Shown: piece after piece, positions 25,419 to 43,906 of the stretch
Numbering within the stretch: the stretch's first letter is position 1
Layout: every line of letters begins with the position of its first letter
Source of the DNA: Noviherbaspirillum massiliense JC206
Lineage (GTDB): Bacteria > Pseudomonadota > Gammaproteobacteria > Burkholderiales > Burkholderiaceae_D
Direction of reading: 5' to 3'
Assembly (NCBI RefSeq): GCF_000312045.1
Contig: NZ_HE978634.1
Coordinates: 3,053,838-3,117,837, forward strand
DNA: 64,000 nucleotides
Notes under the pieces: generated by a model
Seen by the model: the letters and a program-made list of their open reading frames with translations, nothing else
What the model was told of the DNA's origin: nothing
Database searches by the model: none
Made by a program: the position numbers and the translations under genes

Positions 25419-26288
25419 ATGGCTGCCCTCCCATCAAACAGTGCCGAAAGCTTCATGCGGATCAGGCCGCGCCTGGTCCGCATTGCCTATCGCATGCTCG
25501 GCTCCGTGGCGGAAGCGGAAGATGTCGTGCAAGACGCGTATTTGCGCTGGCATCGTACTGACCATGACGCGATTGAAAGCCATGATGCGTTTCTGGTCAG
25601 GATGGTGACGAGGCTTTGCCTGGATGTGCTGAAATCCGCGCGGGTTCAGCGTGAAGAGTACATTGGCTCCTGGCTGCCCGAGCCCTTTATCGATACGGAA
25701 GAAAGCCGCAGCGACGACATTACGCTGTCCCTGATGATGGTGCTGGAAAGGCTGTCGCCGCTGGAGCGTGCCGCCTTTCTTTTGTACGATGTCTTCGGGC
25801 TGGACTTCGAAGAAGTTGCACGAGCGGTGGAACGCGACGCGTCCACTTGCCGCAAGTTGGCCAGCCGGGCTCGGGAGCATGTACAGCAGGCGCGCCCGCG
25901 TTACCCGGTGCCGCCTGAGCTCGGCAAGAAAATGGCTGCCGCTTTCTTTGCGGCTTCTCGGGAGGGAAATCTTCAGGTTCTTGAAACGCTGCTTGCCGCC
26001 GATGTGACGCTTTATTCCGATGGAGGAGGGAAGCGCGTGGCCACCATCAAGCCGGTTTACGGTTCTCAGAAGGTAATCCGGTTTTTCATAGGCCTGTCTC
26101 AAAAGCCTGACTATGTGGCAGGGCGATTGCTGGCGGAATGCCTGATTGATGGCTTGCCGGGATATGTCACGCTGGAGCGGGACGACATCGTGCAGACCAC
26201 CGCGCTGTCGATTGAAGCCGACAAGATCACGGGTATTTACGTGGTACGCAATCCCGACAAACTCAAGCATGTCCTTTCTTTCATCTAG
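25419..26288 (+). CDS. sigJ: ECF41-type RNA polymerase sigma factor (SigJ-like) with SnoaL-like C-terminal domain
   Basis: A 289-residue sigma factor. Region 2 (FMRIRPRLVRIAYRMLGS and AEDVVQDAYLRW) and region 4 (LSPLERAAFLLYDVFGLDFEEVARAV) occupy about residues 10-165. The C-terminal ~120 residues are a SnoaL/NTF2-like domain. The ECF41 signatures WLPEP, DGGGK and NPDKL are all present. In this group no anti-sigma factor is used; the C-terminal domain modulates activity. The ATG at 25419 begins two bases after the AhpD-like stop. The upstream TGTCACA-N16-CGTC promoter is probably its own target. The inducing signal is unknown. Confidence 0.93.
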   Translation: MAALPSNSAESFMRIRPRLVRIAYRMLGSVAEAEDVVQDAYLRWHRTDHDAIESHDAFLVRMVTRLCLDVLKSARVQREEYIGSWLPEPFIDTEESRSDDITLSLMMVLERLSPLERAAFLLYDVFGLDFEEVARAVERDASTCRKLASRAREHVQQARPRYPVPPELGKKMAAAFFAASREGNLQVLETLLAADVTLYSDGGGKRVATIKPVYGSQKVIRFFIGLSQKPDYVAGRLLAECLIDGLPGYVTLERDDIVQTTALSIEADKITGIYVVRNPDKLKHVLSFI

Positions 26289-26590: not shown

Positions 26591-28027
26591 ATGCGTAAAC
26601 CTATACTGGACGGCATGTCGGTCCGCCATTTGTTGCTCCTGGTATTTACCCTGATCGTCCTTCCCTTAAGCGGCACCTCGATCCATGCGCTTTTCACATT
26701 GGAGCGCCTGGTCGAGGACAGCCGGGAAGCGACGTATGACGCCATTCGCCTGACGGAAGATGTGCAGCGTTTAAGCGGAAGAACCATTGCAATGGAACGC
26801 AGCGCGCGCCAGTACCTGATTCTGAACGACCAGACTTTCGAGGCGCTTTACGAGGACGCATGGAAGGATGCGCAGGAACTGCTTGGTTCGCTGTCTGTCG
26901 CCTTACCCGGCATGGCGCCCAAGGCGTTTGAACAATGGCGTAACGAAAGCACGGCGGCATGGGGCATTCTGCAGCATCACTCACAGTACCTGCCCGCCAC
27001 CAATGCAGCGAACCTGAGCCAGATTTTTTCGCGGCTTGCGCAGATCAACAACCAGCTCGCGGCGGAAAGCAAGAATGAAGTCGAGCGGCAGAATCAGCGG
27101 CTGCTGGCGGATCTCAAGCAGCGGCAGAACGTGCTGGCCTGGATGGTCATTTCCATGGTGCTGCTAGCGGCAGGACTGGCATCCGTTTTCGGTATATGGC
27201 TGTCGCGCTCGCTCGCGCAGATCGAGTCCGCCATCGGCGATCTCGGCAAAAACCGCCTGGACCAGCCGATAGAAGTGAAGGGGCCTGCCGACCTGCGGCA
27301 ATTGGGCCTGCAATTGAACTGGCTGCGGCAGCGGCTGGGCGACCTGGAAAACGACAAGGCGCGCTTCCTGAGGCATATCTCGCATGAATTGAAAACACCG
27401 CTGGCGGCCCTGTCCGAAGGCGTTGCGCTGTTGGGCGAGGAGGTGGTCGGCGGACTCACGCAGCGCCAGCATGAAGTCGTGCGCATCCTGCGCCAGAACA
27501 CTTCCGCCTTGCACGGGCAGATCGAGGATCTGCTGCGCTACAACGCTGCCGCTTTCGACGTGCAGCATCTCAAGCTGCAGCCGGTTGACCTTGAAGCGCT
27601 GTTGCATCAGGTGATAGACAGCCAGCGCCTGCAATGGCAGGCGCGCTCCTTATGCGTAAAGTTAGCGGGTTCCGCCAAACCGGTCATGGCCGACAGTGAC
27701 AAGTTTTCCATTGTCTTCGGGAACCTGCTGTCGAACGCCATTCGCTTCAGTCCCGATGGTGGTACCATTCAGTTCACTTTGTCGGATGGACACGAGCATG
27801 TCCATATCGACTGCGCCGACGAAGGGCCGGGCGTGGCGACTGCGGACGTAACGCGCATTTTCGAGCCCTTCTATCAGGGCATCCATCAGCCCGCAGGGGC
27901 CCGCCGCGGCAGCGGCATCGGCCTTTCCATCGTGCGCGAATACGTCGAAGCACACCGTGGTACCGTTCAATTGCTGCCCAGCGAGAGGGGAGCTCACTTC
28001 CGTATCGAATTAGCCAATGAGAATTAA
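26591..28027 (+). CDS. qseE: Sensor histidine kinase of the QseE/GlrK type
   Basis: A 478-residue inner-membrane kinase. A first membrane helix (residues 12-34), a helical periplasmic region (about 35-175), a second helix (about 177-200) and a HAMP-like linker precede the HisKA domain, with the phosphorylated H265 in RHISHELKTPLA. The ATPase domain follows with N (NLLSNAIRFSPDGG), G1 (DEGPGV) and G2 (GSGIGLSIV) boxes. The order kinase, lipoprotein, sigma-54 regulator matches glrK-yfhG-glrR (qseE-qseG-qseF). Its stop overlaps the lipoprotein gene by 11 bases. It should phosphorylate QseF; the physiological signal is unsettled. Confidence 0.9.
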   Translation: MRKPILDGMSVRHLLLLVFTLIVLPLSGTSIHALFTLERLVEDSREATYDAIRLTEDVQRLSGRTIAMERSARQYLILNDQTFEALYEDAWKDAQELLGSLSVALPGMAPKAFEQWRNESTAAWGILQHHSQYLPATNAANLSQIFSRLAQINNQLAAESKNEVERQNQRLLADLKQRQNVLAWMVISMVLLAAGLASVFGIWLSRSLAQIESAIGDLGKNRLDQPIEVKGPADLRQLGLQLNWLRQRLGDLENDKARFLRHISHELKTPLAALSEGVALLGEEVVGGLTQRQHEVVRILRQNTSALHGQIEDLLRYNAAAFDVQHLKLQPVDLEALLHQVIDSQRLQWQARSLCVKLAGSAKPVMADSDKFSIVFGNLLSNAIRFSPDGGTIQFTLSDGHEHVHIDCADEGPGVATADVTRIFEPFYQGIHQPAGARRGSGIGLSIVREYVEAHRGTVQLLPSERGAHFRIELANEN

Positions 28028-28562
28028 ATACCTGGCATGCTTGCTTACCGTGCTGATCACCGGATGCGCTGCGCAGCCTCCAGCGCCGCTTCCGCCGGAG
28101 CCACAGGAAGTCATGATCGTTTCCCGTCCCAGCGAAGTGGAGGAATTGCTTTCATATCATCAGTCCCTGCTGATCCTCCCGCGCGCCGAAATCACCAGGG
28201 AACTCGAGAAACTGGATGTCCAGCCGAAAAGCCCGAAGCTTGCTATCCAAAAGGCAATGGCCCTGGCGCTGCTGGGCCGCAAGGCAGACCTCGCGCTCGC
28301 CCAGACGCATCTTCAGGGCGTAATAAATACCGACGACACGGTGCCGCTGAATCTCCGTGCATTCGCGCAGATGCTGTCGTCGAATGTTGCAAGCTCCCAG
28401 CGGCTGGCCGAACAACTCGACAAGACGGAACGGCAACTCGCTGAAAGCCAGCGCAACGCGGAACACTTCCACAGAATGCTGGATCAACTCAAGGCGATCG
28501 AGAGCACGCTGCCGGCTCGCCGCAGCAATTCGCCCTTGATCAGGCAGGACGGAACACGATGA
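28017..28562 (+). CDS. qseG: QseG/YfhG-like outer-membrane lipoprotein
   Basis: A 181-residue lipoprotein with signal peptide and lipobox LITGC (Cys17), followed by a Pro-rich stretch. The C-terminal half is helical and probably coiled coil (residues 110-165). QseG of enterobacteria interacts with the kinase QseE and tunes its activity. Here the gene overlaps the kinase gene by 11 bases and the regulator gene by 4 bases (ATGA), so the three proteins are translationally coupled. Sequence conservation outside the lipobox is low in this family, so the assignment rests mainly on position. Confidence 0.82.
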   Translation: MRIKYLACLLTVLITGCAAQPPAPLPPEPQEVMIVSRPSEVEELLSYHQSLLILPRAEITRELEKLDVQPKSPKLAIQKAMALALLGRKADLALAQTHLQGVINTDDTVPLNLRAFAQMLSSNVASSQRLAEQLDKTERQLAESQRNAEHFHRMLDQLKAIESTLPARRSNSPLIRQDGTR

Positions 28563-29923
28563 ACGATTTGCATATTCTGCTGGTAGACGACGATCCCGAC
28601 CTGCTGCGCCTGTTGTCCATGCGGCTGACGGCTGCCGGCTATCGCGTTACCGAGGCCGCCAGCGCGGAAGCGGCCCAGCTGCAGCTGGCATTGGGCCGCC
28701 CTTCGCTGGTCATCACCGATGTGCGCCTTCCGGGCCGCGACGGACTGGCACTCTTTGACGACATCCGCACCCAGTATGCCGGCCTGCCGGTCATCCTGCT
28801 GACCGCGCACGGCACGATTCCGGATGCGGTCGATGCCATCGCACGTGGCGCGTTCGCCTATCTGACCAAACCTTTCGACGGCAAGGTGCTGCTGGATAAA
28901 GTATCGCAGGCGCTCAGCCTGGCCATGCCTGTGGCGCCGCATGCCCACGGCGACGAATCATGGCGGGCTGATATCGTCAGCCGCAGCCATTGCATGGAAG
29001 AACTGCTGGCCGAGGCCAAGCTGGTGGCCGGATCGGATGCCAGCATCCTGATTCGCGGCGAAAGCGGCACCGGCAAGGAAATGCTGGCGCGCGCCATCCA
29101 CCGCGCCAGCCCGCGCGCGCAGGCACCTTTCGTTGCCATCAATTGCGGCGCGATTCCCGAACACCTGCTCGAGTCCGAGCTGTTCGGCCACATGAAAGGC
29201 GCGTTTACCGGTGCCGCGCAGAACCGGCGCGGCCTGCTGCAGGCGGCCGATGGCGGAACCCTCTTTCTCGACGAGATCGGCGACATGCCGCTTGTGCTGC
29301 AGGTGAAGCTGCTGCGCGTGCTGCAGGAACGCATGGTGCGGCCCCTGGGCTCGGACGTCGCGACGCCGATCGATGTGCGCATTCTGTCGGCAACCCACCG
29401 CGACCTGGACAAGGCCATGGCCGAAGGCCAGTTCCGCGACGACCTGTATTACCGGCTGAATGTGGTGACCTTGTGGATGCCGTCGCTGAATGAACGGCGC
29501 GAAGACATCGCGCCGCTTGCCAAGCATTTCATCCGCCTGCTCGCGGCCAAGTACCAGAAATCGGTCAACGGCTTCGCCCCCGATGCGCTGGAAGCCCTGG
29601 TGTCCGCCTCCTGGCCCGGCAACGTGCGCCAGCTGTACAACGTGGTGGAACAGCTTTGCGCGCTGGCCATCACGCCGCTCATCCCCCTTTCCCTCGTGCA
29701 GAGGGCGTTGCGGGTGCCCTCGCTGGAAGTATTGAGCTACGCCGAAGCGAAGCTGCGCTTTGAACGCAACTATCTGATCCACCTCTTGAAGCTCACCGAC
29801 GGCAATGTCTCGGATGCGGCCCGGCTCGCCGAGCGCAACCGTACCGAGTTCTATCGCCTGCTGCAAAAACACGAGCTCACGCCCAACCTGTTCCGGCAGG
29901 ATGGCGATCCTGTCGCCGAATAG
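28559..29923 (+). CDS. qseF: Sigma-54-dependent response regulator of the QseF/GlrR type
   Basis: A 454-residue NtrC-class activator. The receiver has D54 as phosphoacceptor ([12 protein letters not shown]). The AAA+ domain (about 145-380) shows Walker A GESGTGKE from residue 167, the sigma-54-contacting GAFTGA loop at 214-219, and Walker B LFLDEIGD. The C-terminal Fis-type helix-turn-helix ([20 protein letters not shown]) lies at about 415-445. GlrR is known to bind TGTC-N10-GACA. Two such sites lie directly after this gene, one overlapping its stop codon, upstream of a sigma-54 promoter for the cyanophycin genes. Confidence 0.93.
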
Positions 29924-29928
29924 CGACA
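29911..29928 (+). promoter_or_regulatory. QseF/GlrR-type activator site 1
   Basis: TGTC (29911-29914), ten bases, then GACA (29925-29928). The full site TGTCGC-N6-GCGACA is a perfect 6-bp-arm dyad. It overlaps the qseF stop codon. It matches the known GlrR consensus TGTC-N10-GACA exactly, about 142 bases upstream of the sigma-54 -24 element. Confidence 0.75.
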
Positions 29929-29944
29929 GGAACAAACCCTTTCG

Positions 29945-29957
29945 AATCAATCACTTG
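29945..29957 (+). promoter_or_regulatory. Candidate IHF-binding site
   Basis: AATCAA-TCAC-TTG fits the IHF consensus WATCAANNNNTTR at every defined position. It lies between the two QseF-type sites. IHF bending is a standard part of sigma-54 promoters. The consensus is short, so a chance match is possible. Confidence 0.5.
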
Positions 29958-29977
29958 CCATAAGCAGATAGCAACCG

Positions 29978-29995
29978 TGTCGCCATACAGCGACA
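29978..29995 (+). promoter_or_regulatory. QseF/GlrR-type activator site 2
   Basis: A second exact TGTC-N10-GACA (29978-29981 and 29992-29995), again with extended arms TGTCGC/GCGACA. It is 67 bases after the first site (about six helical turns) and about 75 bases upstream of the -24 element, which is a normal activator distance. Confidence 0.78.
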
Positions 29996-30070
29996 AGCTC
30001 GGCTGCTTCCGGCCGGCACGGCATGTCTTCTTTTCATTTAAGTCGCTGAATTCATTCACCTTTTCCTGAG

Positions 30071-30086
30071 TGGCACAGGCCTTGCT
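30071..30086 (+). promoter_or_regulatory. Sigma-54 (-24/-12) promoter of the cyanophycin genes
   Basis: TGGCACAGGCCTTGCT matches the sigma-54 consensus TGGCAC-N5-TTGC(A/T), with exactly ten bases between the GG and GC pairs. The -12 element lies in a perfect 8-bp inverted repeat (GCCTTGCT-CTA-AGCAAGGC, 30079-30097). The first cyanophycin gene starts 53 bases downstream. Confidence 0.82.
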
Positions 30087-30138
30087 CTAAGCAAGGCATT
30101 GTTCATCTGCCCATGGCAGCAAAGAGTAAAGGTAAGAA

Positions 30139-32181
30139 ATGAAAATAGAGGCATGGCAGCTGGCGAACCCGCAATCCGACGAGATGCCGCTTTCCCCGGA
30201 GAAGGAAAAGGCGCGCATCGACATCCTCAGGACATTTTTCCTGCGCGGCCCCAGCATCTGGACTTACCGTCCCATCCTGGAAGCATGGATCGACATCGGC
30301 CATCTTGAAGAACGGCCTTCCAATACCATCCCGGGCCTGTACGAGCGCCTGTGCGCCTGGCTGCCCGGACTGATCGAGCACCACTGCGGCGTCGGCACGC
30401 GCGGCGGTTTCCTGGAACGGCTGCGCGACGGGACATGGGCCGGCCATATCCTCGAACACCTCATGATCGAGCTGCAGATGCTGGCCGGCATTCCGACCGG
30501 CTTCGGCAGGGCGCGGGAAAGCTCCAGGCGCGGCGTCTATAAAGTCGTGGTCAGAACGCCCGACGAGAAAATCGGTCTGGCAGCGCTGCACGCAGCGCGC
30601 GACCTGCTGATTGCAGCGATCGAAGGCGACGCATTCGACGTCGACGCAGCTGTCCTGCGTCTGCGCGGCATGTTGTCGGAAAGCGGGCTCGATCCCAATA
30701 CGCTCTGCCTGCTTGAAGCAGCCACGGAGCGGCGCATCCCCGCCATCCGCCTGAATGATGGCGGGCTGCTGCAGCTCGGCTACGGCAAGAACCAGCGGCG
30801 CGTCTGGATGAACAAGGTGCCGCAGGGCGGCGCGATTGGCCAGAGCATCGCCGACGACCCCATGCTGGCGCGTGGCCTGCTCCAATCATGCGGCATACCG
30901 GTGCCTTACATGGAGCGGGTGGAAAGCGCAGAGGAAGCCTGGGCGCTGCGGCAGGACCGGGAGCGGCCGCTGGTGATCACGCCGGCGAATGCCGATGGCC
31001 GCAATGCCGCGCGCCAGGCAGCGGATACCCGCGAACAGATTGAAGCGGCATACCGCGCCGCCCGCGAAGAAGACAGCGAGGTGCTGGCCGAGGATTACCT
31101 TGCCGGAAACGACTATCGGCTGCTGATCGTCGGCAACCGGATTGCCGCCGCCGCTCAGTGCAACGCGGCCGATGGCACGAGTATGGCGCAGATCGCGGTC
31201 GCTGCTATCCACCCGGAGTTCGATGCAATGGCTACCCTGGCGCTGCGTGTCGTAGGACTGGACATCGCGGAAGTGCGCCTTGTCGCGGCCAACCTTTCCC
31301 GGCCGCTTTCCGAGCAGGACGGCTGCAAGGCTTGCATCACCCGCATCAACCCCTTGCCTGACCTGCAACACTACGGCAGCCGGGAACAGGGCAGCCTGCG
31401 TCCGATAGGACTGGCGATCGTCGATCACCTGATGGGGCACGTCAAGGAAGATCCGCTGCCCATCGTCGGCGTCAGCGGAAGCAGAGGAAAAACGGCAGTG
31501 GCGCGCCTGGTGGCAAAGCTGCTGCAGGACAGGTACAAGAAAGTCGGCTTGGCATGCGCGGACGGTCTTTACCTTGGATCACGACAGGTCGAGCGCGGCA
31601 ATCAGGCTGGCTGGCACGCCGCGCAGCGCGTATTGCGCAATTCGCACATCGATGCCGCGGTGTTCGAACACGGCTGGCAGGAAATCCTCTCCGAAGGCCT
31701 CGGGTACGAACGCTGCATGATCGCCGTCGTCACGGGCTGGGACAGCCGGGATACCGTGCCCGAATACGACATGCGCAATGCGGAGCAGATGAAGAAAGTG
31801 ATCCGTACGCCGGTTGACGTGGTGCTGCCCGAGGGCGCGGCTGTGCTCAATGCCGACGATCCTGCGGTCGCCTCCCTAGCGGACTATGCAGACGGCGAAG
31901 TGATTTTCTTCAGCCGTAGCGGCGAGGCGCCGTGCCTGGCCGAGCACCGGAACAAGGGCGGCCGCGCCGTGTTCCTGCGCAACGGGGATATCGTCTTCGC
32001 CGTAGGGCGGCACACCATCGCCATCCAGCTCGCTGCGGTGCAAGCTTCCGCACACAGCGCGGACAACATGCTCGCCGCCGCTGCCGCCGCCTGGGCGCTG
32101 GGCATGTCTCCTTCATCCATCTGCACCACGCTGAAAGCCGTTCACACGCAGCCTTCCGTGGCCGCACTTACCGCTGAATAA
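30139..32181 (+). CDS. Cyanophycin synthetase-like protein CphA', apparently with degenerate ATP-binding sites
   Basis: A 680-residue homologue of cyanophycin synthetase, about 190 residues shorter than its neighbour. It keeps the N-terminal domain (residues 20-210), an ATP-grasp-like middle part (about 210-440) and a Mur-ligase-like part, but lacks the C-terminal Mur domain. Key positions differ from the intact paralogue. The ATP-grasp loop that reads VVKPRDGNQGKG in CphA is VITPANADGRNA here, losing the lysine and glycines. The Mur P-loop is GSRGKTA instead of GNNGKTT. I infer a weakly active or non-catalytic partner subunit. AAAGGTAAGAA precedes the ATG. CphA' paralogues beside cphA are known in Burkholderiales such as Cupriavidus. 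Confidence 0.88.
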   Translation: MKIEAWQLANPQSDEMPLSPEKEKARIDILRTFFLRGPSIWTYRPILEAWIDIGHLEERPSNTIPGLYERLCAWLPGLIEHHCGVGTRGGFLERLRDGTWAGHILEHLMIELQMLAGIPTGFGRARESSRRGVYKVVVRTPDEKIGLAALHAARDLLIAAIEGDAFDVDAAVLRLRGMLSESGLDPNTLCLLEAATERRIPAIRLNDGGLLQLGYGKNQRRVWMNKVPQGGAIGQSIADDPMLARGLLQSCGIPVPYMERVESAEEAWALRQDRERPLVITPANADGRNAARQAADTREQIEAAYRAAREEDSEVLAEDYLAGNDYRLLIVGNRIAAAAQCNAADGTSMAQIAVAAIHPEFDAMATLALRVVGLDIAEVRLVAANLSRPLSEQDGCKACITRINPLPDLQHYGSREQGSLRPIGLAIVDHLMGHVKEDPLPIVGVSGSRGKTAVARLVAKLLQDRYKKVGLACADGLYLGSRQVERGNQAGWHAAQRVLRNSHIDAAVFEHGWQEILSEGLGYERCMIAVVTGWDSRDTVPEYDMRNAEQMKKVIRTPVDVVLPEGAAVLNADDPAVASLADYADGEVIFFSRSGEAPCLAEHRNKGGRAVFLRNGDIVFAVGRHTIAIQLAAVQASAHSADNMLAAAAAAWALGMSPSSICTTLKAVHTQPSVAALTAE

Positions 32182-32218: not shown

Positions 32219-34828
32219 ATGGAAATAACACGCATCAAGGCCTTGCGCGGGCCAAACCGCTGGAGCAGGAAAACCGCCATCGAAGCGACGGTCACCTGTC
32301 TGCCGCATGAACGGAACATCGACGGCATTGCCCGCTTCCTGGACCGGCTGAACACGCTGGCATCGCCGGAATCCATCCTGCAGAAGAAGGAAGACGGCAC
32401 GCTGACGCTTGCGCACATTCTGGGCTCGGCCGCCCTGCATCTGCAGCGGCGCGCCGGATGCGAGATCAGCACATGCGTCGTTACGCGCACCTCGGACCCG
32501 GCAGTACTGCAGGTAGTCGTCGAGTATGCGGAAGAACCGGTAGGCCGGCTGGCCTTCGACATGGCCGCCGCGCTCTGCAATGCGCTGATGGAAGGCGCGG
32601 CATACGATATGCCGGCCGCCGTTGCACAATTACACGAGCTGTATGAAGACGTGCGCCTGGGCCCGAGCACCGGAGCGATCGTCGACGCAGCGGTCAGGCG
32701 CGGCATTCCCTATCACCGTTTGACCGAAGGCAGCATGGTGCAGTTCGGCTGGGGCAAGCGCCAGCGCCGCATCCAGGCAGCCGAGATGGACCGTACCGAA
32801 GCGATCGCCGAAGCGATTGCACAGGACAAGGACCTGACCAAGAGCCTGTTGCGCGATGCCGGTGTCCCGGTGCCGCAAGGGCAGGTTGTTTCCAGCGCGG
32901 AAGCGGCATGGGAAGCGGCGCGCGCGCTGGGCGGCCGGGTCGTCGTCAAGCCGCGCGACGGCAATCAGGGCAAGGGCGTGGCGGCCGGCATCAGCACATG
33001 CGAAGAAGTGATGGCAGCTTGCGTGCGTGCACAGGAAATCGATAGCGACGTCATTGTGGAGCGCTATCTTCCCGGCCGCGATTTCCGCCTGCTCGTAGTG
33101 GATGGAAAGCTGGTTGCTGCAGCCCGTCGGGACCCTCCGCAGGTGCGGGGCGACGGCAAACGCAGCATCCGTGAACTGGTGGAGCACATCAACCAGGACC
33201 CGCGCCGCGGCGACGGGCATGCCACGCCACTGACCCGCATCCGTCTCGACAAGCTGGCGATCGCCACTCTTGAAAACCAGGGCTTTGGTCCGGACAGCGT
33301 GCCTCCTGCGGGCGTGACGGTGCTGCTGCGTAACAATGCCAACCTTAGCACCGGCGGCAGCGCGACCGACGTCACGGACGAAGTGCATCCCGAACTGGCG
33401 GCGCGTGCGGTTGAAGCAGCATTGATGGTCGGCATCGACATCTGCGGCGTCGATGTCGTCTGCGAAACCGTCAGCAAGCCATTGGAAGAACAGGGCGGCG
33501 GCATCGTCGAGGTGAATGCTGCGCCGGGTTTGCGCATGCATCTGCAACCTTCTTTCGGCGCCGGGCGCCCGGTGGGCGAAGCCATCATTTCAGCCATGTT
33601 CGAAGACGGTGACAACGGCCGCATTCCCATAGTGGCAGTCACCGGCAACAATGGCAAGACCACGACGGCTCGCCTGATTACGCATGTGCTAAAGCAAACC
33701 GGGAGGCATGTCGGCATGACCAATACCGACGGCATCTACATCGACGGCCAGCGCATCGATTCCGGCGACTGCAGCGGCCCCAAGAGCGCGCGCAACGTGC
33801 TGCTGCATCCGGACGTGGACGCTGCCGTATTCGAGACGGCGCGCGGCGGCATCCTGCGCGAAGGACTGGGCTTCGATTATTGCGACGTGGCAGTCGTCAC
33901 CAATCTGGGCGACGGCGATCATCTGGGCATGAATTACATCGATACGGTGGAGCAGCTTGCCGAGGTCAAGCGCGTGATCGTGCAGAGCGTATCGCCTTCC
34001 GGCATGGCCGTGCTGAATGCGGCCGATCCTCTCGTGGCCGCCATGGCCGATCATTGCGCCGGGAATATCACTTATTTTGCGCACGACCCGGACCATCCGG
34101 TCATGCTTGCGCACGCCAAAGCCGGCGGGCGCATCGTGTACCGCGACGGCGACAGGATCGTTGCTTGCGAAGGGCAATTCCGGCATGCCATTCCGCTGTC
34201 CAAGATTCCATTGACCATGCGCGGTGCGCTCGGCTTCCAGGTCGACAACGCGATGGCGGCCATCGCCGCCGCCTGGGCGCTGGGCATTGCATGGGACGAC
34301 ATGGCTGCCGCGCTGGCCCGCTTTGCCAGCGATGCGCAGACCGTGCCCGGCCGGTTCAACCGCTTCGACTGGCGCGGTGCAACCATCATTGCCGATTACG
34401 GCCACAATCCGGATGCGATGAAGGCATTGGTCCAGGCAGTCGGCAATCTGCCCGCACGGCGGCGCACGGTCGTCATCAGCGGCGCCGGCGACCGCCGCGA
34501 CGAAGACCTTCGCCGCCAGACCGAGATCGTGGGCGACTTGTTCGACCGCGTAATCCTGTATGAAGACCAGTGCCAGCGCGGGCGTGCCGACGGCGAAGTG
34601 ATCGCGCTGCTGAAGCAGGGACTGTCGTCAGTCGGCCGAGTATCCGAGGTGCAGGAAATCCATGGCGAAATGGCAGCGATCGATGCAGCGCTGAGTGGAC
34701 TGCACGCAGGCGACTTGTGTCTCGTTCTGGTCGACCAGGTGGAAGAGGCGCTTGCCCATATCGGCCGGCGCACCACGGAGGCGCCTGATGCATGTAACGG
34801 GACGGTGGTACACGAGGCTGTGGCATGA
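32219..34828 (+). CDS. cphA: Cyanophycin synthetase CphA
   Basis: An 869-residue enzyme that makes the storage polymer cyanophycin (poly-aspartate with arginine side chains) by alternate ATP-dependent addition of Asp and Arg in the cytoplasm. The N-terminal domain is at about 1-190. The ATP-grasp domain (about 200-460) contains VVKPRDGNQGKGVA and the metal-binding EVNAAPGLRMH. The Mur-ligase domain (about 470-869) contains the P-loop VTGNNGKTTTARL, ETARGGILREGLGFD and the DYGHNPDA motif. Length is normal for CphA. It starts 37 bases after the cphA' stop, so both genes should share the sigma-54 promoter. No cyanophycinase gene is adjacent. Confidence 0.95.
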   Translation: MEITRIKALRGPNRWSRKTAIEATVTCLPHERNIDGIARFLDRLNTLASPESILQKKEDGTLTLAHILGSAALHLQRRAGCEISTCVVTRTSDPAVLQVVVEYAEEPVGRLAFDMAAALCNALMEGAAYDMPAAVAQLHELYEDVRLGPSTGAIVDAAVRRGIPYHRLTEGSMVQFGWGKRQRRIQAAEMDRTEAIAEAIAQDKDLTKSLLRDAGVPVPQGQVVSSAEAAWEAARALGGRVVVKPRDGNQGKGVAAGISTCEEVMAACVRAQEIDSDVIVERYLPGRDFRLLVVDGKLVAAARRDPPQVRGDGKRSIRELVEHINQDPRRGDGHATPLTRIRLDKLAIATLENQGFGPDSVPPAGVTVLLRNNANLSTGGSATDVTDEVHPELAARAVEAALMVGIDICGVDVVCETVSKPLEEQGGGIVEVNAAPGLRMHLQPSFGAGRPVGEAIISAMFEDGDNGRIPIVAVTGNNGKTTTARLITHVLKQTGRHVGMTNTDGIYIDGQRIDSGDCSGPKSARNVLLHPDVDAAVFETARGGILREGLGFDYCDVAVVTNLGDGDHLGMNYIDTVEQLAEVKRVIVQSVSPSGMAVLNAADPLVAAMADHCAGNITYFAHDPDHPVMLAHAKAGGRIVYRDGDRIVACEGQFRHAIPLSKIPLTMRGALGFQVDNAMAAIAAAWALGIAWDDMAAALARFASDAQTVPGRFNRFDWRGATIIADYGHNPDAMKALVQAVGNLPARRRTVVISGAGDRRDEDLRRQTEIVGDLFDRVILYEDQCQRGRADGEVIALLKQGLSSVGRVSEVQEIHGEMAAIDAALSGLHAGDLCLVLVDQVEEALAHIGRRTTEAPDACNGTVVHEAVA

Positions 34829-35175
34829 CGAGGCGCACCTGGCGCTCTTTCTAGGAGAGGAAAGATTGGCGCGGCAGGGGATAGCACCTGGAGCGGTCGT
34901 GCGATCGCGCGGAACATTTCGTGAGCCGGCACGACCGCGCGGGCATGGTGAAGCTGCATGAACAGGATAGGCGGGTCGCCGCCTGAATTTAATCGAGTGC
35001 TTTGCCCGCACGCGCGACACAACCGGCCGTCGCGTAAGCCCACTACCCGCACTTCAAAACGGCGCTGGCATCTCCTTCCTGCGAGAAATGCGGGGTTTGC
35101 GATGCCGCGGCGGGTTTCATGAGCAGCTCGCACATTTTGACTGACAATAAAAAAGACCCATAAATTTTCCAATTT
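34829..35175. other. Region downstream of cphA
   Basis: About 350 bases with no supportable gene up to the terminator hairpin at its right end. The base composition changes from GC-rich to AT-richer near 35130, marking the left edge of the accessory stretch that runs to about 38.5 kb. Confidence 0.5.
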
Positions 35176-35189
35176 ATGGGTCGGCTTTT
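35155..35189 (+). terminator. Rho-independent terminator after the cyanophycin genes
   Basis: GACCCATAAATT (35155-35166) pairs perfectly with AATTTATGGGTC (35171-35182) around TTCC, followed by GGCTTTTC; an A-run precedes the hairpin. It lies about 330 bases after the cphA stop. Confidence 0.75.
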
Positions 35190-35436
35190 CTCAGATTATC
35201 CGTCTATCTACACGGAGGCCACCAAAGTTATAGCAATCGCGGGAGCGGGGGAGGACATAAATCAACGGCTTAGGGATCTCTGCTTCAACACGCAGCCTGG
35301 CGGGTGGGCAGAGTTAATGCAATTTGCCTACTTCCGCACCATAGTTGTTGCAATGAGCCTATTGAGAGATACCGACCCTGTAGGATCGCGAGCAACCCTC
35401 TGGGAGGCCCTTAAGATTTCTGATCCGGACCAGTAG
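35176..35436 (+). CDS. Possible small hypothetical protein, 86 codons
   Basis: An open frame whose ATG lies inside the right arm of the terminator hairpin. The composition looks protein-like (ten acidic residues, AYFRTIVVAMSLLRD helix), but there is no clear ribosome site, no recognised domain, and its 3' end overlaps another small candidate on the opposite strand. It may be real, a fragment of a larger lost gene, or chance. Confidence 0.3.
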   Translation: MGRLFSDYPSIYTEATKVIAIAGAGEDINQRLRDLCFNTQPGGWAELMQFAYFRTIVVAMSLLRDTDPVGSRATLWEALKISDPDQ

Positions 35437-35607
35437 CGTCTTCAGTTCGGTCCACTTGTGGGCACTTACCGGATACAGCAAGAGCATGGGTGTACGCCGC
35501 CTGTCGATCCACAACGGACGTTCGTCTTGCTCCGAAGCGGGCGTGCAATGTTCACAATGACCGACCCAGAAGCGTTCGGTGTCGATTGAATCGGCAAGAG
35601 TCGTCAC
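35359..35607 (-). CDS. Possible small hypothetical protein, 82 codons
   Basis: A GTG-started frame (GTG at 35605-35607) beginning one base after the TAA of the upstream secreted-protein gene, so it could be translated by coupling. It contains a CEHC pair and a Trp/Arg-rich middle. I do not recognise it. It overlaps the opposite-strand candidate at 35176-35436, so at most one of the two is likely real. Confidence 0.3.
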   Translation of the reverse strand: MTTLADSIDTERFWVGHCEHCTPASEQDERPLWIDRRRTPMLLLYPVSAHKWTELKTLLVRIRNLKGLPEGCSRSYRVGISQ

Positions 35608-35608
35608 C

Positions 35609-36064
35609 TTATTTCTGGCGTGCTATTTTCCCATTCGCCCAGCGGTATCGTTTGACCCTTTGTTTCTGACCTGTGCCATACGGCGATCTTAGCTCGATGA
35701 CCGCGCCCGTTGACAGATACTTTGCGCCGACTAACTCGTTGCACTCGCCGAACGGCTTTGAGAACTTTACCGCTGTCGCCGACGTAATCTCCAGTACAGC
35801 AAATTCATGTCTGCAATGTAAGCCGTTAGTGCCTATATCAACGATTAGGTATTCGGAATCGCCTTTAGGAATTATTCGATATAGATCGATCCCATTACCG
35901 TCATACCTGGCAATTTCCTTCCCATTAAAGAAGACGGCGTAGCTGCCTGCTTCTTCTCGTACTTCGGCCGCCCCGTAATGTGTTTCGACCGGACCGCAAT
36001 AGGCGGTTGCGGCATGCAACGAGAACAGCAGGAGACACGAGCGAAAGAGCGACATTAGTCTCAT
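35609..36064 (-). CDS. Hypothetical secreted protein
   Basis: A 151-residue protein with an N-terminal signal peptide (hydrophobic residues 4-20, cleavage near TAYCG). The rest is beta-rich (YAVFFNGKEIARYDGNGIDLYR, EYLIVDIGTNGLHC, AVLEITSA). Two cysteines follow the signal region, enough for one disulfide. I do not recognise the family. The ATG at 36062-36064 is used; a TTG one codon upstream is also in frame. It is one of a run of small exported proteins on this strand in the AT-richer accessory stretch. Start and function are uncertain, but the signal peptide and composition support a real gene. Confidence 0.6.
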   Translation of the reverse strand: MRLMSLFRSCLLLFSLHAATAYCGPVETHYGAAEVREEAGSYAVFFNGKEIARYDGNGIDLYRIIPKGDSEYLIVDIGTNGLHCRHEFAVLEITSATAVKFSKPFGECNELVGAKYLSTGAVIELRSPYGTGQKQRVKRYRWANGKIARQK

Positions 36065-36133
36065 CAACGGACCCGCTTAACGATATAGGTTGACCAGCGC
36101 GGAGCGCCAGCATTGAACCGCGAGTTAAACCAG

Positions 36134-36637
36134 CTATTCACCAAAATCCCCTTCCAGGACAACTGTTCCTAATCCGTCTAGCCTACCCTGAGCCGGTTCA
36201 CTGCACTTTTTTGAAGACACAATGCCCTCAGAAGTCACATTGACGCCGTGTCGATATGCAGGCCGCTTGTCATCGGTACCATGGTCCTCAATGGAGTAGA
36301 CGCTGTACACGAACTTTCCGGCTTTAAACGTGAGCCAAGTATCAAATACTTCAGCATGAGAGTTCGCTTTTAGCCTAAAAGCTCGTTGCGTCCCAATCTT
36401 TGAAGCGGGATATGTCATTTCAATAGCACCTAGCCGACCGTAGCGATATTGCATATATCCTGTGGTGGCGGCCAGTGGTTTTGAGCTGCAAATTGAAAGT
36501 ATTTTGTCCGACTTCTCAATCCGGCAACTTAGAACGATCTCTTCATTTGAGGCGCATAACGTAACGCCTAACGCGTCTGTTGAGGTGCAAAGCCCTGCCG
36601 CGATCGCCCAAGTTATGCGCTTCGTCAGCTTCTTCAT
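36134..36637 (-). CDS. Hypothetical secreted protein
   Basis: A 167-residue protein with a signal peptide (KKLTKRITWAIAAGLCTS, residues 2-20) followed by a mature part with several cysteines (LCASNEE, LSCRIEK, ICSSKP, KKCSEP) suggesting disulfides in the periplasm. Its sequence is beta-rich. I do not recognise the family. The ATG at 36635-36637 is chosen because the signal peptide begins there; a TTG six codons upstream has AGGA close by and is an alternative. It lies between two other small exported proteins on the same strand. Confidence 0.6.
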   Translation of the reverse strand: MKKLTKRITWAIAAGLCTSTDALGVTLCASNEEIVLSCRIEKSDKILSICSSKPLAATTGYMQYRYGRLGAIEMTYPASKIGTQRAFRLKANSHAEVFDTWLTFKAGKFVYSVYSIEDHGTDDKRPAYRHGVNVTSEGIVSSKKCSEPAQGRLDGLGTVVLEGDFGE

Positions 36638-36700
36638 GTTGTTTAACGTGCGCAATTCCTGGAGCGCGTAAGCGCGTCCGCGTTGATTGAAACGTTGAAC

Positions 36701-37177
36701 TTAGTCATTGTCGATAGACTTGACTGGTAGGCTTTTTCGATATTGATCGATGCTGACGAGGATAGCGCGGTCGCCTTTGATAAATCTGCCCGTACAGACC
36801 GCGTTATATCCGTCTCCGCAGAGCACTTCTGGATATTGACCATACGTCAGCTTTTGATGCACTCCGGAGCGGCCCCATTCAGAATCGAGTTTCCAACCTT
36901 GACGAAGCAATCTGGCGCGAGCGTTCGCGTAACCTTCACCCTCCTTATGCGTCGGCTTGACGTCGCCAGCAATAGCCAGGCCACTAAAGATAAGAAACGT
37001 TACGAGCAATAGTACAGCAGAGATTCGGCTAACCGGACGTATGCGGATTGCAGCAGAATACTGAAGACAACATGGGCATGGATGGCAACGTCCATTAACA
37101 AGGTTAAATTGGCCTAACATCTGCGGCTGATGGAAGTATGGATGATTAGTGATAGGGCATTTCAACCTAGTGTGCAA
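36701..37177 (-). CDS. Hypothetical exported protein, start uncertain
   Basis: The convincing part is the last ~105 codons: a hydrophobic segment (SAVLLLVTFLIFSGLAIAGD) that looks like a signal peptide, then GYANARARLLRQGWKLDSEW and YPEVLCGDGYNAVCTGRF with a likely disulfide pair. This resembles small exported proteins of unknown function common in proteobacteria. The frame extends upstream to 37177, but those first ~55 codons are Cys/Pro/His-rich and unlike a normal N terminus. No ATG lies just before the signal segment, so the true start may be a rare codon or the gene may be 5'-damaged. Confidence 0.5.
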   Translation of the reverse strand: MHTRLKCPITNHPYFHQPQMLGQFNLVNGRCHPCPCCLQYSAAIRIRPVSRISAVLLLVTFLIFSGLAIAGDVKPTHKEGEGYANARARLLRQGWKLDSEWGRSGVHQKLTYGQYPEVLCGDGYNAVCTGRFIKGDRAILVSIDQYRKSLPVKSIDND

Positions 37178-37180
37178 AAC

Positions 37181-37405
37181 TCATCCCGTCAACGTGTTTG
37201 GGACAAAACGGAGATACCCGGCAATATCGGGACGGCTGCCGACAGCTTTGTCTTTAGGATGAGTTCGGCCTTCATTAACGGGGACCTCAGTGAAGTCAAA
37301 TGGGCTTATGCCTTCCACGCATACTGCATTTATGCCGTACTGATTCGGGTTGGAGCGGCGCCGATGGTAGGTATAGATCCGGCACTCCGAACAAATTTGG
37401 TTCAA
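37181..37405 (-). pseudogene. 5'-truncated GFA (CENP-V) domain gene remnant
   Basis: The 74 codons match the C-terminal half of glutathione-dependent formaldehyde-activating (GFA/CENP-V) proteins: a CSEC zinc-ligand pair, the signature YHRRRSNPNQYGINAVCVEG (usually HHxRRSNPxxYGVNVACLEG), then FDFTEVPVNEG and RTHPKD. The N-terminal half with the first zinc ligands (SCHCGAV type) is missing: 4 bases upstream lies the stop of the lipoprotein gene. There is no ATG; a TTG opens the frame. I read it as a remnant cut off by the insertion or deletion that brought in the lipoprotein gene. Confidence 0.7.
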
Positions 37406-37409
37406 CGAC

Positions 37410-38048
37410 TTACTTTGCCAATGCGTTCTTTATAACAACCGACCCTAACCTTGGGTCCAGGCTTTTTAGCTCTCGCACATCTCGGTCGAAATCGTTTTTG
37501 ACCGACATGTTGATGTAGCTCGGAACGAACTCCCCGCCATACTTGTTAGCCCGAGCATCAAACATCACCCCATAAGACATCTGGATGCTGCCGATATACG
37601 TCACCTGACCCGCGACGACCTCGAATTCCCTTGGGTTCGTTATGTTCTTTTCCTTGAGGAGAAACGATCTGTTTGACGCCATTGGCGTGACATCGCCCTG
37701 CGTCAAGCGGTACTTGCCCGGCTTGACGACGGCGAGGAGAAGTTTGGCATAGTCTTCGTCAGGCAGTGCGCGCGGGTCCTTGGACCAAAAATAGCGGTTG
37801 TCCGACCTGTTCAGCAGCCATTCCTCGCCCTGCCCATCCGTCGGCCCATAACGGAGGTGGAAGTTGAAATGCAACGTCGTAGGAGCAGGGTGCGGAGTCG
37901 CAAAATAGACGGTTGCCGCCACCAGGCCCGAACCTTCGGGCATCAATGGCTGGGTGGTGTCGCCAATCTTAGTTTGGGTGGCGCAAGCGGCTAAGCTAAG
38001 GAGAATTGCCGAAATCAGAAGACGGCGGCCAGCGTTAATAAATTGCAT
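37410..38048 (-). CDS. Hypothetical lipoprotein
   Basis: A 212-residue protein with signal peptide and lipobox LAAC (Cys22). The mature part is beta-rich with no recognised domain (LVAATVYFATP, LHFNFHLRYG, VVAGQVTYIGSIQMSYG). The KPGKYRLTQG and TYIGSI elements recall small beta-sandwich lipoproteins, but I cannot place it in a family. Its promoter region contains two adjacent palindromes (listed separately). It is the most upstream gene of the accessory stretch on this strand, and is separated from gyrB by 549 bases. Confidence 0.7.
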   Translation of the reverse strand: MQFINAGRRLLISAILLSLAACATQTKIGDTTQPLMPEGSGLVAATVYFATPHPAPTTLHFNFHLRYGPTDGQGEEWLLNRSDNRYFWSKDPRALPDEDYAKLLLAVVKPGKYRLTQGDVTPMASNRSFLLKEKNITNPREFEVVAGQVTYIGSIQMSYGVMFDARANKYGGEFVPSYINMSVKNDFDRDVRELKSLDPRLGSVVIKNALAK

Positions 38049-38099
38049 ATCGTTTCTTCATGAAGGTAAAAGACAGCTGGAGCGTTCTCTCGAATGCGC

Positions 38100-38133
38100 T
38101 ATATTGCCAATAAGCAATATACTGTTGCAACAG
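38100..38133 (-). promoter_or_regulatory. Two adjacent palindromes upstream of the lipoprotein gene
   Basis: TATATTGC-CAATAA-GCAATATA (38100-38121) is a perfect 8-bp-arm inverted repeat, followed without a gap by the perfect 12-bp palindrome CTGTTGCAACAG (38122-38133). A TTGACA box on the minus strand (38143-38148) suggests the lipoprotein promoter overlaps them. They may be a repressor operator. Confidence 0.5.
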
Positions 38134-38455
38134 TTAAAGTTGTGTCAAGTAGGCTACCGTCTTTTCGCCAATAGCTTTAATTTCGGATGTGCAGGACTCG
38201 CTCTGACATCCCGATGTAGCGACTAATATGATTTGTGCTCACGCGCTTTTTCGAGATGTCCAAGGGGTCGTATGCCCGCCCGACCGGATTGGATGCAGCC
38301 AGTCCGGGTTTCGATGTCCGCTTTCGGGCATTGAACAGATGCTATGGGTGTCTGCAATTGGCCGGCTGTCGACATACACATCGCCTGTCGCTTTGACCAA
38401 TTAGTGCCTGCAAGCGGACATAGCTGCCATCACTACTGTTCCCGCATCAGAAATG

Positions 38456-38481
38456 AAAAGGGCCAACCAAATGGTCAGCCC
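38456..38481 (-). terminator. Rho-independent terminator after gyrB
   Basis: On the minus strand GGGC-TG-ACCA-TT-TGGT-TG-GCCC forms an 8-bp stem with one internal mismatch pair, followed by TTTTC. It lies about 120 bases past the gyrB stop. Confidence 0.7.
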
Positions 38482-38597
38482 TCTACTCCCGAAACTACTC
38501 ATTCCATCTTGTAGGCCAGTTGCATTAACTAGCACCCGCTAGTTGCACTTCTGTGGCGCCAGCTGCAATTACTTTGGCGGCCTCGCTACACAAAAGC

Positions 38598-41120
<2,523 letters not shown>

Positions 41121-41147
41121 CTACTGGGACATCAATATTTCTGCAAT

Positions 41148-41190
41148 CGGCAAAGGGGCCGCATCCACTGCTGCGAGCCTCCCTTTGCCG
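41148..41190 (-). other. Long hairpin between dnaN and gyrB
   Basis: CGGCAAAGGG (41148-41157) and CCCTTTGCCG (41181-41190) are perfect 10-base complements separated by 23 bases. There is no T-run on either strand, so it is unlikely to be a classic terminator. It may set relative expression or mRNA processing between dnaN and gyrB. Confidence 0.5.
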
Positions 41191-41208
41191 TATTGTTTGC
41201 GAGCGATA

Positions 41209-42315
41209 TCAAATGCGCATCGGCATCACGACATACTTGAAATCAGCATTGTCGGGCACCGTGATCAGCGCGGATGAGTTGGCGTCGCCAAGCGCGATGT
41301 TGATCTGGTCGCACTTGAGGTTGTTTAACACGTCGAGCAGGTAGGTGACATTGAAGCCGATATCGATGCTGTCGCCGCCGTAGTCGATTTCGATTTCCTC
41401 CACGGCCTCTTCCTGGTCGGCATTGGTGGAACTGATCTTCAGGCTGCCGGGGCTGATGATGCAGCGCACGCCCTTGAATTTGTCGCTGGTCATGATGGCG
41501 GCGCGCTGCAGAGAGCGCAGCAGCTGCTCGCGGCTCATCGTGAAATTGTTCTTGTATCCCTTCGGGACCACCCGGGTGTAATCCGGGAACTTGCCTTCGA
41601 CCAGCTTCGAGATCAGTTCGATGTCGGCGAAGGTGAGCTTGACCTGGTTGTTGGCGATTTCCACGTCGACCGGATTGTCGTTTTCTTCCAGCAGGCGCTG
41701 CAGTTCCAGGATGGTCTTGCGCGGGATGATCACTTCCTGGCGCGCGAATTCCTGTTCCGCCTCGACTTGGCAGAAGGCGAGGCGGTGGCCGTCGGTCGCA
41801 ACCGCAATCACGTTCTTGCCGTCAACTACCAGCAGCAGGCCGTTCAGGTAATAGCGGATGTCCTGCTGGGCCATGGCGAAATGGACCATGTTGAACAGGT
41901 GCTTCAGGGTCTTTTGCGGCAGTGTCACTTTCGCGTTGTACTGCTCGGCCTGCGCCACCGTCGGGAATTCCTCGGCAGCCAGGGTCTGCAGGGCGAAGCG
42001 CGACTTGCCGCTCTGCACCGTCATGCGCTTGTTGGCCAGGGACAGCGACACGTCGCCGGAATCGGGCAGGGCGCGCAGGATGTCGAGCAGCTTGCGCGCG
42101 GCGACGGTCGTGGCGGCGACATCACCGCCGGTGCCGACTTGCGCATGCGTCGTGATCTGCACTTCGATGTCGGTCGACAGGAAGGACACCTTTTCGCCGT
42201 CCTTGCGAATGAGGATATTGGCCAGAATCGGCAAAGTGTGCCGACGCTCGACAATACCGCTCACAATCTGCAGAGGCCGGAGTAGCGTGTCTCTCTGGGC
42301 TTTAACCAATTGCAT
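41209..42315 (-). CDS. dnaN: DNA polymerase III beta subunit (sliding clamp)
   Basis: A 368-residue clamp protein that dimerises around DNA and tethers polymerase III. Three repeated clamp domains of about 120 residues are evident. Family landmarks include the start MQLVKAQRDTLLRPLQIVSGIVERR, ATDGHRLAFC in the second domain and the C-terminal YVVMPMRI. Length matches E. coli DnaN (366). It lies 211 bases downstream of dnaA in the standard order. The start ATG is preceded by AAGGATAAAAGC. Confidence 0.98.
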   Translation of the reverse strand: MQLVKAQRDTLLRPLQIVSGIVERRHTLPILANILIRKDGEKVSFLSTDIEVQITTHAQVGTGGDVAATTVAARKLLDILRALPDSGDVSLSLANKRMTVQSGKSRFALQTLAAEEFPTVAQAEQYNAKVTLPQKTLKHLFNMVHFAMAQQDIRYYLNGLLLVVDGKNVIAVATDGHRLAFCQVEAEQEFARQEVIIPRKTILELQRLLEENDNPVDVEIANNQVKLTFADIELISKLVEGKFPDYTRVVPKGYKNNFTMSREQLLRSLQRAAIMTSDKFKGVRCIISPGSLKISSTNADQEEAVEEIEIDYGGDSIDIGFNVTYLLDVLNNLKCDQINIALGDANSSALITVPDNADFKYVVMPMRI

Positions 42316-42526
42316 GCTTTTATCCTTGTATGAGTGTGACGGTGAGGTTGATAAATGAAGTTAATAAGATGAGGCAAAATTCCGATAAATCAATTGCTTA
42401 CCACGTGAATCCGGCGCAAAAACATCCTCTATTTTGACAGAAAGATTGCCGCCAAAAAACCGGCAGTTTTGCGGATCATTGCCTGTTTGCACATGCAAAC
42501 TTATCCACAGGCTGCCGGGCAGCAGT
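42316..42526. other. dnaA-dnaN intergenic region
   Basis: A 211-base AT-rich gap that contains one perfect DnaA box with an abutting palindrome (listed separately), presumably an internal dnaN promoter, and several TTATC-like fragments. It is a secondary candidate for origin or autoregulatory function. Confidence 0.5.
42485..42509 (+). promoter_or_regulatory. Palindrome abutting a perfect DnaA box downstream of dnaA
   Basis: GTTTGCACATGCAAAC (42485-42500) is a 7-bp-arm inverted repeat. It touches the consensus DnaA box TTATCCACA (42501-42509), 18 bases beyond the dnaA stop. Confidence 0.65.
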
Positions 42527-43906
42527 TCATCCCTTCAAGGTTTGCTCCAGCACGTGCAGTTCATGATTGAGTTCGGGGTTCTTGGTACGGTCGGCGGCAA
42601 TCTTGCGCACGGCATGTAGCACGGTCGTGTGGTCGCGGCCACCGAACAATTCGCCGATTTCCGGCAAGCTCTTCTGGGTCAGCTCCTTGGCCAGGTACAT
42701 CGCAATCTGGCGCGGCCGCGCGATATTGGCCGGCCGCTTCTTCGAATACATGTCGGCCACCTTGATATTGAAGAAATCGGCGACCGTCTTCTGGATGTTT
42801 TCCACTGAAATCTGGCGGTTCTGCACCGACAGCAAATCCTTCAGCGCTTCCTTGACCACGTCGATGGTGATGTCCTTGCCGTGAAAGCGCGAGTACGCAA
42901 GGATCTTGCGCAGAGCACCTTCGAGTTCGCGCACGTTCGAGCGCAGGTGCTTGGCCACGAAAAACGCCACATCGTCGGACAGGCCCACGCCTTCCTGCGA
43001 CGCTTTCTTGAGCAGGATCGCCACCCGCATTTCCAGCTCCGGCGGTTCGACCGCGACCGTGAGGCCGGAATCGAAGCGGGAAATCAGGCGGTCATCCATG
43101 CCGCTGATTTCCTTCGGATACGTATCGCTGGTGATGATGATCTGCTTCTTGGCGGCGATCAGGGCTTCGAAAGCGTAGAAGAATTCTTCCTGGGTGCGGC
43201 TCTTGCCGGCGAAGAACTGGATATCGTCGATCAGCAGCAGGTCGAGCGAGTGGTAATAGCGCTTGAAGTCATCGAAACCCTTGCGCTGGTAAGCAGTCAC
43301 TACGTCGCGAACATATTGTTCCGCGTGAATGTAGCGAATCCTGGCGCTCGGATTTTCCTCCAGCACCTGATTCCCGATTGCATGGATCAGGTGGGTCTTG
43401 CCGAGACCGACACCGCCGTACAGAAACAGGGGGTTATACGAAACACCGGGATTGCTGGCAACCTGCACGGCGGCCGCGCGTGCCAGCTGGTTGGCCTTAC
43501 CGGTCACGAAGCTTTCGAAGGTCAGCGCAGGATTGATCTTGCTCTGCTCGCGCCGCGGACTGCTGTCGATGACTATGTCCGGCCGCTCGTTGATTTCGCC
43601 GATATCCGGCACAGCATGGGGGGTGGCAGCGGCAGGAGTGGGTGCCGATTTTCTGGCACCGCCGGCTTTCGGGTCGAGCACGAACAGCACCTCGATCGGT
43701 GCATCCCAGTACTGGCTTGCAAGTGTGGTGATGCGGCTGGCGAACTGGGTCTTCACCCAGTCCAGCTTGAAACGGTTCGGCGCGGCAATGCGCAGGCGGC
43801 CATCTTCGAAATCAAGCGGCGCCAGTGGCTTGATCCAGGCACTGAACTGCTGCGGCGTGAGCTCCTGCTCCAGCATTGCGGAGCAGGTCTGCCAAAAATT
43901 TTCCAT
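42527..43906 (-). CDS. dnaA: Chromosomal replication initiator protein DnaA
   Basis: A 459-residue AAA+ initiator that binds DnaA boxes at oriC and melts DNA. Domain I occupies residues 1-80, a variable Pro/Ala-rich linker about 80-125, the ATPase domain about 125-340 with Walker A GGVGLGKT at 164-171 and Walker [10 protein letters not shown], and the C-terminal DNA-binding domain contains [14 protein letters not shown] and the signature [15 protein letters not shown]. The length is normal. The gene is divergent from rpmH, and the 392-base gap between them is the origin candidate. Confidence 0.99.

Follow-up and report, generated by a model that had tools for sequence, protein, structure and literature searches.

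A predicted QseF-dependent sigma-54 promoter precedes an extra cyanophycin synthetase operon in a relative of Massilia

What drives the two cyanophycin synthetase genes, cphA′ and cphA, that directly follow the response regulator gene qseF in Noviherbaspirillum massiliense JC206, a relative of Massilia? We analysed a 64-kb stretch of its genome around them (contig NZ_HE978634.1; hereafter the window, with positions counted from its first nucleotide). From comparison of sequences we suggest that the QseE/QseG/QseF system, together with RpoN and integration host factor (IHF), probably drives this extra operon, and that the gap between qseF and cphA′ is an ancestral QseF target promoter, which trails qseF in many Burkholderiales. 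We put the probability of these two statements, taken jointly, at about 0.77. What the sequence shows directly is the sites with their conservation in relatives, the swap of the gene behind them and a single rpoN gene.

The gap extends from 29924 to 30138 (215 nt), the length given by the initial annotation, but the first regulatory element begins inside the qseF open reading frame (ORF). This element, upstream activating sequence 1 (UAS1, TGTCGCCGAATAGCGACA, 29911..29928, no strand), is a palindromic TGTC-N10-GACA motif found by motif scan and a predicted QseF site. It lies over the qseF stop codon and shares 13 nt with the 3′ end of the ORF, an overlap not mentioned in the annotation; its position is kept in relatives. 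UAS2 (TGTCGCCATACAGCGACA, 29978..29995, no strand), also TGTC-N10-GACA and a predicted QseF site, follows 67 nt further on, start to start. Between the two lies the IHF site AATCAATCACTTG (29945..29957, + strand), which matches the consensus WATCAANNNNTTR exactly and is aligned in relatives. The alignment also reveals a mirror-image IHF-like element on the − strand (30039..30052), which is TAAGT-N2-TTGATTT in relatives and TAAGTCGCTGAATT in the window. The sigma-54 −24/−12 promoter TGGCACAGGCCTTGC (30071..30085, + strand) matches TGGCAC-N5-TTGC exactly. Both TGTC-N10-GACA sites, the IHF site and the promoter of the initial annotation are hence present, exact and in place, the promoter being 30071-30085. 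Judged from the −12 position, the transcript would start near 30096. From the promoter to the cphA′ ATG there are 68 nt, the expected leader comprises about 42 nt, and a Shine-Dalgarno-like AAAGG stands ahead of cphA′ (30128..30132, + strand). An inverted repeat with perfect 8-bp arms, GCCTTGC(T)-CTA-(A)GCAAGGC (30079..30097, no strand), extends across the −12 element and is absent, by eye, from the aligned relatives; it could serve for repressor binding or stop read-through.

Can such an arrangement arise by chance? In the window TGTC-N10-GACA occurs three times vs 0.74 expected (the third copy is at 26206-26223), and the exact IHF consensus three times vs 0.78. TGGCAC-N5-TTGC has a single exact match, and with at most one mismatch nine matches are found vs 8.0 expected. 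Among 200,000 first-order Markov sequences modelled on 29881-30138 (258 nt), the chance of at least two UAS is 5e-6 and that of a strict −24/−12 element 1.2e-3. The UAS alone is not rare, with 78 sites in the 4.19-Mb genome and 34 for a reversed control pattern. The composite UAS-N50..80-(−24/−12), however, is found once in the whole genome, at this gap, and the control pattern not at all.

The activator expected to act at these sites is encoded immediately upstream. The qseF/glrR-type gene (28559..29923, + strand, 454 aa) encodes a sigma-54 response regulator with the Pfam domains Response_reg and Sigma54_activat. Its best match among 107 NCBIfam families is PRK15115 GlrR at 599 bits, below the curated cut-off of 763; we thus name it GlrR/QseF-type and do not assign it to the GlrR equivalog. 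It is identical to GlrR of E. coli K-12 at 253 of 442 aligned residues, and the two proteins have the helix-turn-helix (HTH) stretch NRTEFY(R/K)LL in common. The features by which GlrR/QseF orthologues are recognised more widely were all found: receiver, sigma-54 domain, GlrR-like HTH and the order qseE-qseG-qseF, which corresponds to glrK-qseG-glrR in E. coli. The earlier identification of this gene as a GlrR/QseF-type sigma-54 activator thus holds, though short of the equivalog score. The sensor kinase gene of qseE type (26591..28027, + strand, 478 aa) is named from its HAMP, HisKA and HATPase_c domains in Pfam and from gene order, and its product scores below every NCBIfam equivalog cut-off. 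The qseG-like gene (28017..28562, + strand, 181 aa) encodes a putative lipoprotein with a lipobox-like LITGCAA read by eye; it has no Pfam or NCBIfam match and is assigned by its position between qseE and qseF only. The RpoN DNA-binding domain is present in one copy in the genome.

The same kind of promoter is known from the small RNA gene glmY. According to PMC6075780, QseF, together with IHF, binds glmY at three UAS with the consensus TGTN12ACA, QseF also activates rpoE P2, and the E. coli QseF system serves envelope homeostasis; both UAS of the window fit this consensus. As a positive control we read the glmY promoter of E. coli K-12 MG1655 (NC_000913.3), which has TGTC-N10-GACA three times, TGGCACAGTTACTGC and, on the opposite strand, an IHF match. 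The recognition of TGTC-N10-GACA by QseF/GlrR at glmY, stated in the initial annotation, agrees with these promoter parts and, for the UAS consensus, with PMC6075780. Both promoters combine TGTC-N10-GACA with an IHF match and a −24/−12 element containing TGGCACAG, adjoin the qseEGF genes and share the HTH stretch of their activator. They differ in that glmY is a small RNA gene upstream of glrK with three UAS, whereas in the window two UAS lie downstream of qseF and precede a two-gene protein operon.

Is the promoter conserved? At a QseF orthologue threshold of E ≤ 1e-150, 121 of 392 family genomes, the own one included, are positive, and we compared the surroundings for 68 of the other 120. 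Behind qseF, at least one exact UAS is present in 58/68 loci and at least two in 53/68; strict TGGCAY-N5-TTGC occurs in 62/68, the looser −24/−12 pattern TGGCAY-N6-TGC in 66/68 and a strict IHF match in 45/68. Five stretches taken from these loci as controls (61-68 loci each) show the UAS in 0-1 and neither promoter nor IHF site in any. Many of the 68 genomes are closely related and hence not independent. In the alignment UAS1, the IHF site, UAS2, the mirror element and the −24/−12 promoter stand in register up to the leader, and the window departs from it in the mirror element only. The BON-gene promoter of Oxalobacteraceae-type genomes (e.g. Massilia arenosa) has this very layout, with UAS1 overlapping the qseF stop codon or close to it, then IHF, UAS2 66-77 nt on, the mirror element and −24/−12. 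Its downstream gene encodes an exported BON protein where the window has cyanophycin synthetase. The spacing looks constrained as well. Among the 54 loci in which two exact sites precede the promoter, the UAS are 66/67 nt apart in 26, 77 nt in 27 and 96 nt in one. The gaps from UAS to promoter cluster near 42, 63-64, 72-75, 83-86 and 93-95, about 10 bp from one to the next. In a helical-phase test of these gaps, which is lenient, draws on related genomes and has five loci outside the shuffled range, none of 5000 shuffles reached the value; we use the clustering as a description only.

The genes behind the promoter are exchanged between lineages. Of 81 loci, 68 encode a BON-type protein in the first 1.5 kb behind qseF, among them 66/68 family genomes and 1/11 loci from the order; of the two family loci lacking it, one is on a contig ending 258 nt past qseF and the other carries another exported protein. 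Pfam confirms BON in two of the downstream proteins. In none of the other 80 qseF loci does the surrounding stretch compared, whose part downstream of qseF measures 258-10,146 nt and is under 1.5 kb in 36 of them, encode a CphA or CphA′ relative. A scan of named genomes for UAS-N62..92-promoter gave at least 118 loci, and none of the 118 examined has cph genes nearby. Directly before the sites qseF stands in 40 of them, where the cargo is BON (16), OpgG (6), OpgH (5), glycine-zipper (2) or not assigned (11). Another eight have qseF at a different place in the stretch, with bactofilin in 4, BON in 2 and no assigned cargo in 2. The stretch contains no qseF in 70, 60 of which are without assigned cargo and many probably chance matches. 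The names MdoG, bactofilin and glycine-zipper rest on Pfam with one or two examples each, and one cargo type is a family-2 glycosyltransferase by Pfam, which we take to be OpgH. Pseudorhodoferax, Variovorax, Rubrivivax and Saezia resemble the window in having a QseF-type promoter directly after qseF and differ in its cargo, MdoG (Pfam) or the family-2 glycosyltransferase. BON proteins are encoded elsewhere in the own genome, none with this promoter.

The scan also returned loci away from qseF. Bactofilin-type genes of Rhodocyclaceae are preceded by UAS and −24/−12 without adjoining qseF in seven of the at least 118 loci (Pfam Bactofilin, locus L181). In Serratia an osmY-like double-BON gene has the pattern in front of it, in a stretch lacking qseF (L151, L201, L207).

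We suggest the following mechanism. Phosphorylated QseF would bind UAS1 and UAS2, IHF would bend the DNA, and QseF would activate the RpoN-RNA polymerase at 30071-30085. In relatives the same switch would turn on the periplasmic BON-domain protein; here cphA′-cphA occupy the place of the BON gene, directly after the promoter. As the switch serves an envelope protein in relatives, the envelope-sensing system probably controls the extra storage genes, and its signal would lead to cyanophycin production under envelope-related conditions. We lean, with some reserve, towards a broader view, in which qseF is followed by a conserved plug-in promoter with cargo exchanged by lineage (BON, OpgG/OpgH, glycine-zipper). 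Here this promoter would have captured cyanophycin synthetase, and nitrogen storage would be directly controlled by a sigma-54 system that senses the envelope. If true, synthesis of a nitrogen-storage polymer is under direct control of an envelope-sensing two-component system. A fixed promoter with changing cargo also predicts QseF targets outside enterobacteria, namely BON, OpgG/OpgH, glycine-zipper and possibly bactofilin genes, and offers a readable case of a promoter that stays in place while the gene behind it is replaced. The kind of promoter is known; the cyanophycin cargo is new. Our search, with subscription papers and outside preprints not covered, found no paper joining QseF and cyanophycin or describing RpoN control of cphA. 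In the accessible part of a Flavobacterium study CphA and sigma-54 are both mentioned, CphA being linked to proteases and not to sigma-54 (PMC9723704); a catalogue of QseF-like activators contains no cyanophycin in its available portion (PMC3162934), and cyanophycin gene clusters are treated in PMC10206079.

What do the two genes behind the promoter encode? The cphA gene (32219..34828, + strand, 869 aa; NCBIfam, Pfam) encodes a cyanophycin synthetase above both cut-offs (TIGR02068, 967 vs 850 bits; PRK14016, 1193 vs 877 bits), which retains the KP-x-DGN motif of the ATP-grasp domain and the GNNGKTT motif of the Mur ligase domain and looks intact. The product of cphA′ (30139..32181, + strand, 680 aa; NCBIfam, Pfam, motif comparison) has a degenerate ATP-grasp domain and no C-terminal Mur ligase domain, and is below both cut-offs (499 vs 850 and 671 vs 877 bits). 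Its ATP-grasp lysine is lost (VITPANADGRN vs VVVKPSDGNHGRG in two ordinary CphA′), about 70 residues are missing nearby, and its end branch of 2.08 vs a median of 0.33 marks it as fast-evolving. With the motifs of CphA intact and CphA′ degenerate, CphA may be the active subunit and CphA′ an accessory or decaying one. The P-loop lysine is present in the window CphA′ (GSRGKT), whereas ordinary CphA′ have GSHGTT or GSHGMT; ordinary proteins thus keep the ATP-grasp lysine and lack that of the Mur P-loop, and the window protein shows the reverse, the ordinary motifs being those of two proteins (L002 and the own second copy).

The genome has a second, ordinary cphA′-cphA locus (C1:3024300-3029201), to which the window pair is 52% (CphA′) and 67% (CphA) identical. 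At E ≤ 1e-200, 196 of the 245 family genomes encode CphA, this one among them. Ordinary Burkholderiales loci have the same gene pair in the same order, but the promoter is not theirs. We oriented ordinary cphA′ genes by tblastn and read the 500 nt in front of 28 of them, 27 from relatives plus the second copy of the own genome; in one further locus the N-terminus was missing. Neither a UAS nor a strict −24/−12 element occurs (0/28 each), and three have loose matches. A general sigma-54 dependence of cphA was considered and rejected on this result. The initial annotation had proposed to look for the sites, and for adjacency of qseF and cphA, across Burkholderiales. The sites are conserved behind qseF across the family; QseF sites before ordinary cphA′ genes were not found, nor was the adjacency, in any of the 80 other qseF loci or of the 118 pattern loci examined. 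With the sites conserved and the link to cphA not, the arrangement reads as a cargo swap in one genome. Of the proposed connection between the envelope system and cyanophycin, the sites and the activator are thus supported, conservation of the qseF-cphA link is not, and the physiological link is an inference.

The combination of qseF promoter and cphA′-cphA is known from this genome only, as searches for its distribution gave no close relatives. Within the genus QseE is found in one of 15 genomes, the own one, and QseF at 1e-150 in none of the other 14. No close CphA′ was found in the 391 other genomes of the family (1e-130) or in 398 others of the order (1e-118); in named genomes 24 stretches fit a peptide pattern, with none confirmed as close relatives, and 23 plasmid records have matches, all under 60% identity. 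The window branch of the QseF tree is without resolution and does not separate an inherited from an acquired module or from loss in the 14 genus genomes.

Several of these results weigh against QseF control of the operon: the fusion of qseF and cphA in a single genome, a CphA′ that, from its sequence, looks catalytically impaired and fast-evolving, a QseF score short of the GlrR cut-off, the degenerate mirror element and the inverted repeat covering the −12 element. In addition, the layout is only weakly kept at 11 loci of the order outside the family, with a UAS in 5/11, two exact UAS in 1/11, the looser promoter in 6/11 and a strict IHF match in 0/11. The state of CphA′, the ordinary second locus and the occurrence in one genome could also mean that the QseF promoter works but the cph genes are a relic, an extra copy that is decaying or was inserted recently, with cyanophycin made by the second locus and the QseF link having no physiological role. 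We consider this possible, if doubtful: both ORFs are open with G+C content at third codon positions (GC3) of 0.77 in cphA′ and 0.75 in cphA, CphA passes both cut-offs with its motifs kept, and the UAS and −24/−12 are exact, without decay.

It is improbable that read-through from qseEGF, or a sigma-70 promoter that escaped notice, accounts for cphA′ expression, with the QseF promoter inactive or minor. The genes are co-directional across a gap of 215 nt and the inverted repeat could disturb the promoter, but that repeat, if a terminator, would stop read-through, and the sites are kept in relatives with selection-like spacing; a scan of 29700-30300, which models one promoter type only, gave no sigma-70-like match vs 0.2 expected. 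E. coli glmY, a small RNA behind the same promoter type, raises the thought that the promoter really serves a small RNA or leader and cphA′ merely lies downstream. This is very unlikely with about 42 nt from the expected start to the cphA′ ATG and AAAGG in place, and in relatives a protein gene (BON) begins at about the same distance. We give hardly any credence to an assembly join of two distant loci, which the occurrence in one genome would fit, since G+C content and GC3 are similar on both sides, the window lies inside a 3.15-Mb contig and, at this divergence, the genome has no further copy of the genes to mis-join. We therefore retain control of the extra operon by QseF as the probable reading.

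Beyond cphA a 12-bp hairpin (35155..35182, no strand) is terminator-like on both strands. Also downstream of cphA, a low-GC stretch (35000-38500, 0.50-0.55 vs 0.61) contains small orphan genes without family match. Further on, 38598-43906 and 45126-46787 presumably correspond to gyrB, dnaN and dnaA (minus strand) and yidC. With these genes a replication origin is likely within the window, which would place the qseEGF-cph module within about 10 kb of it.

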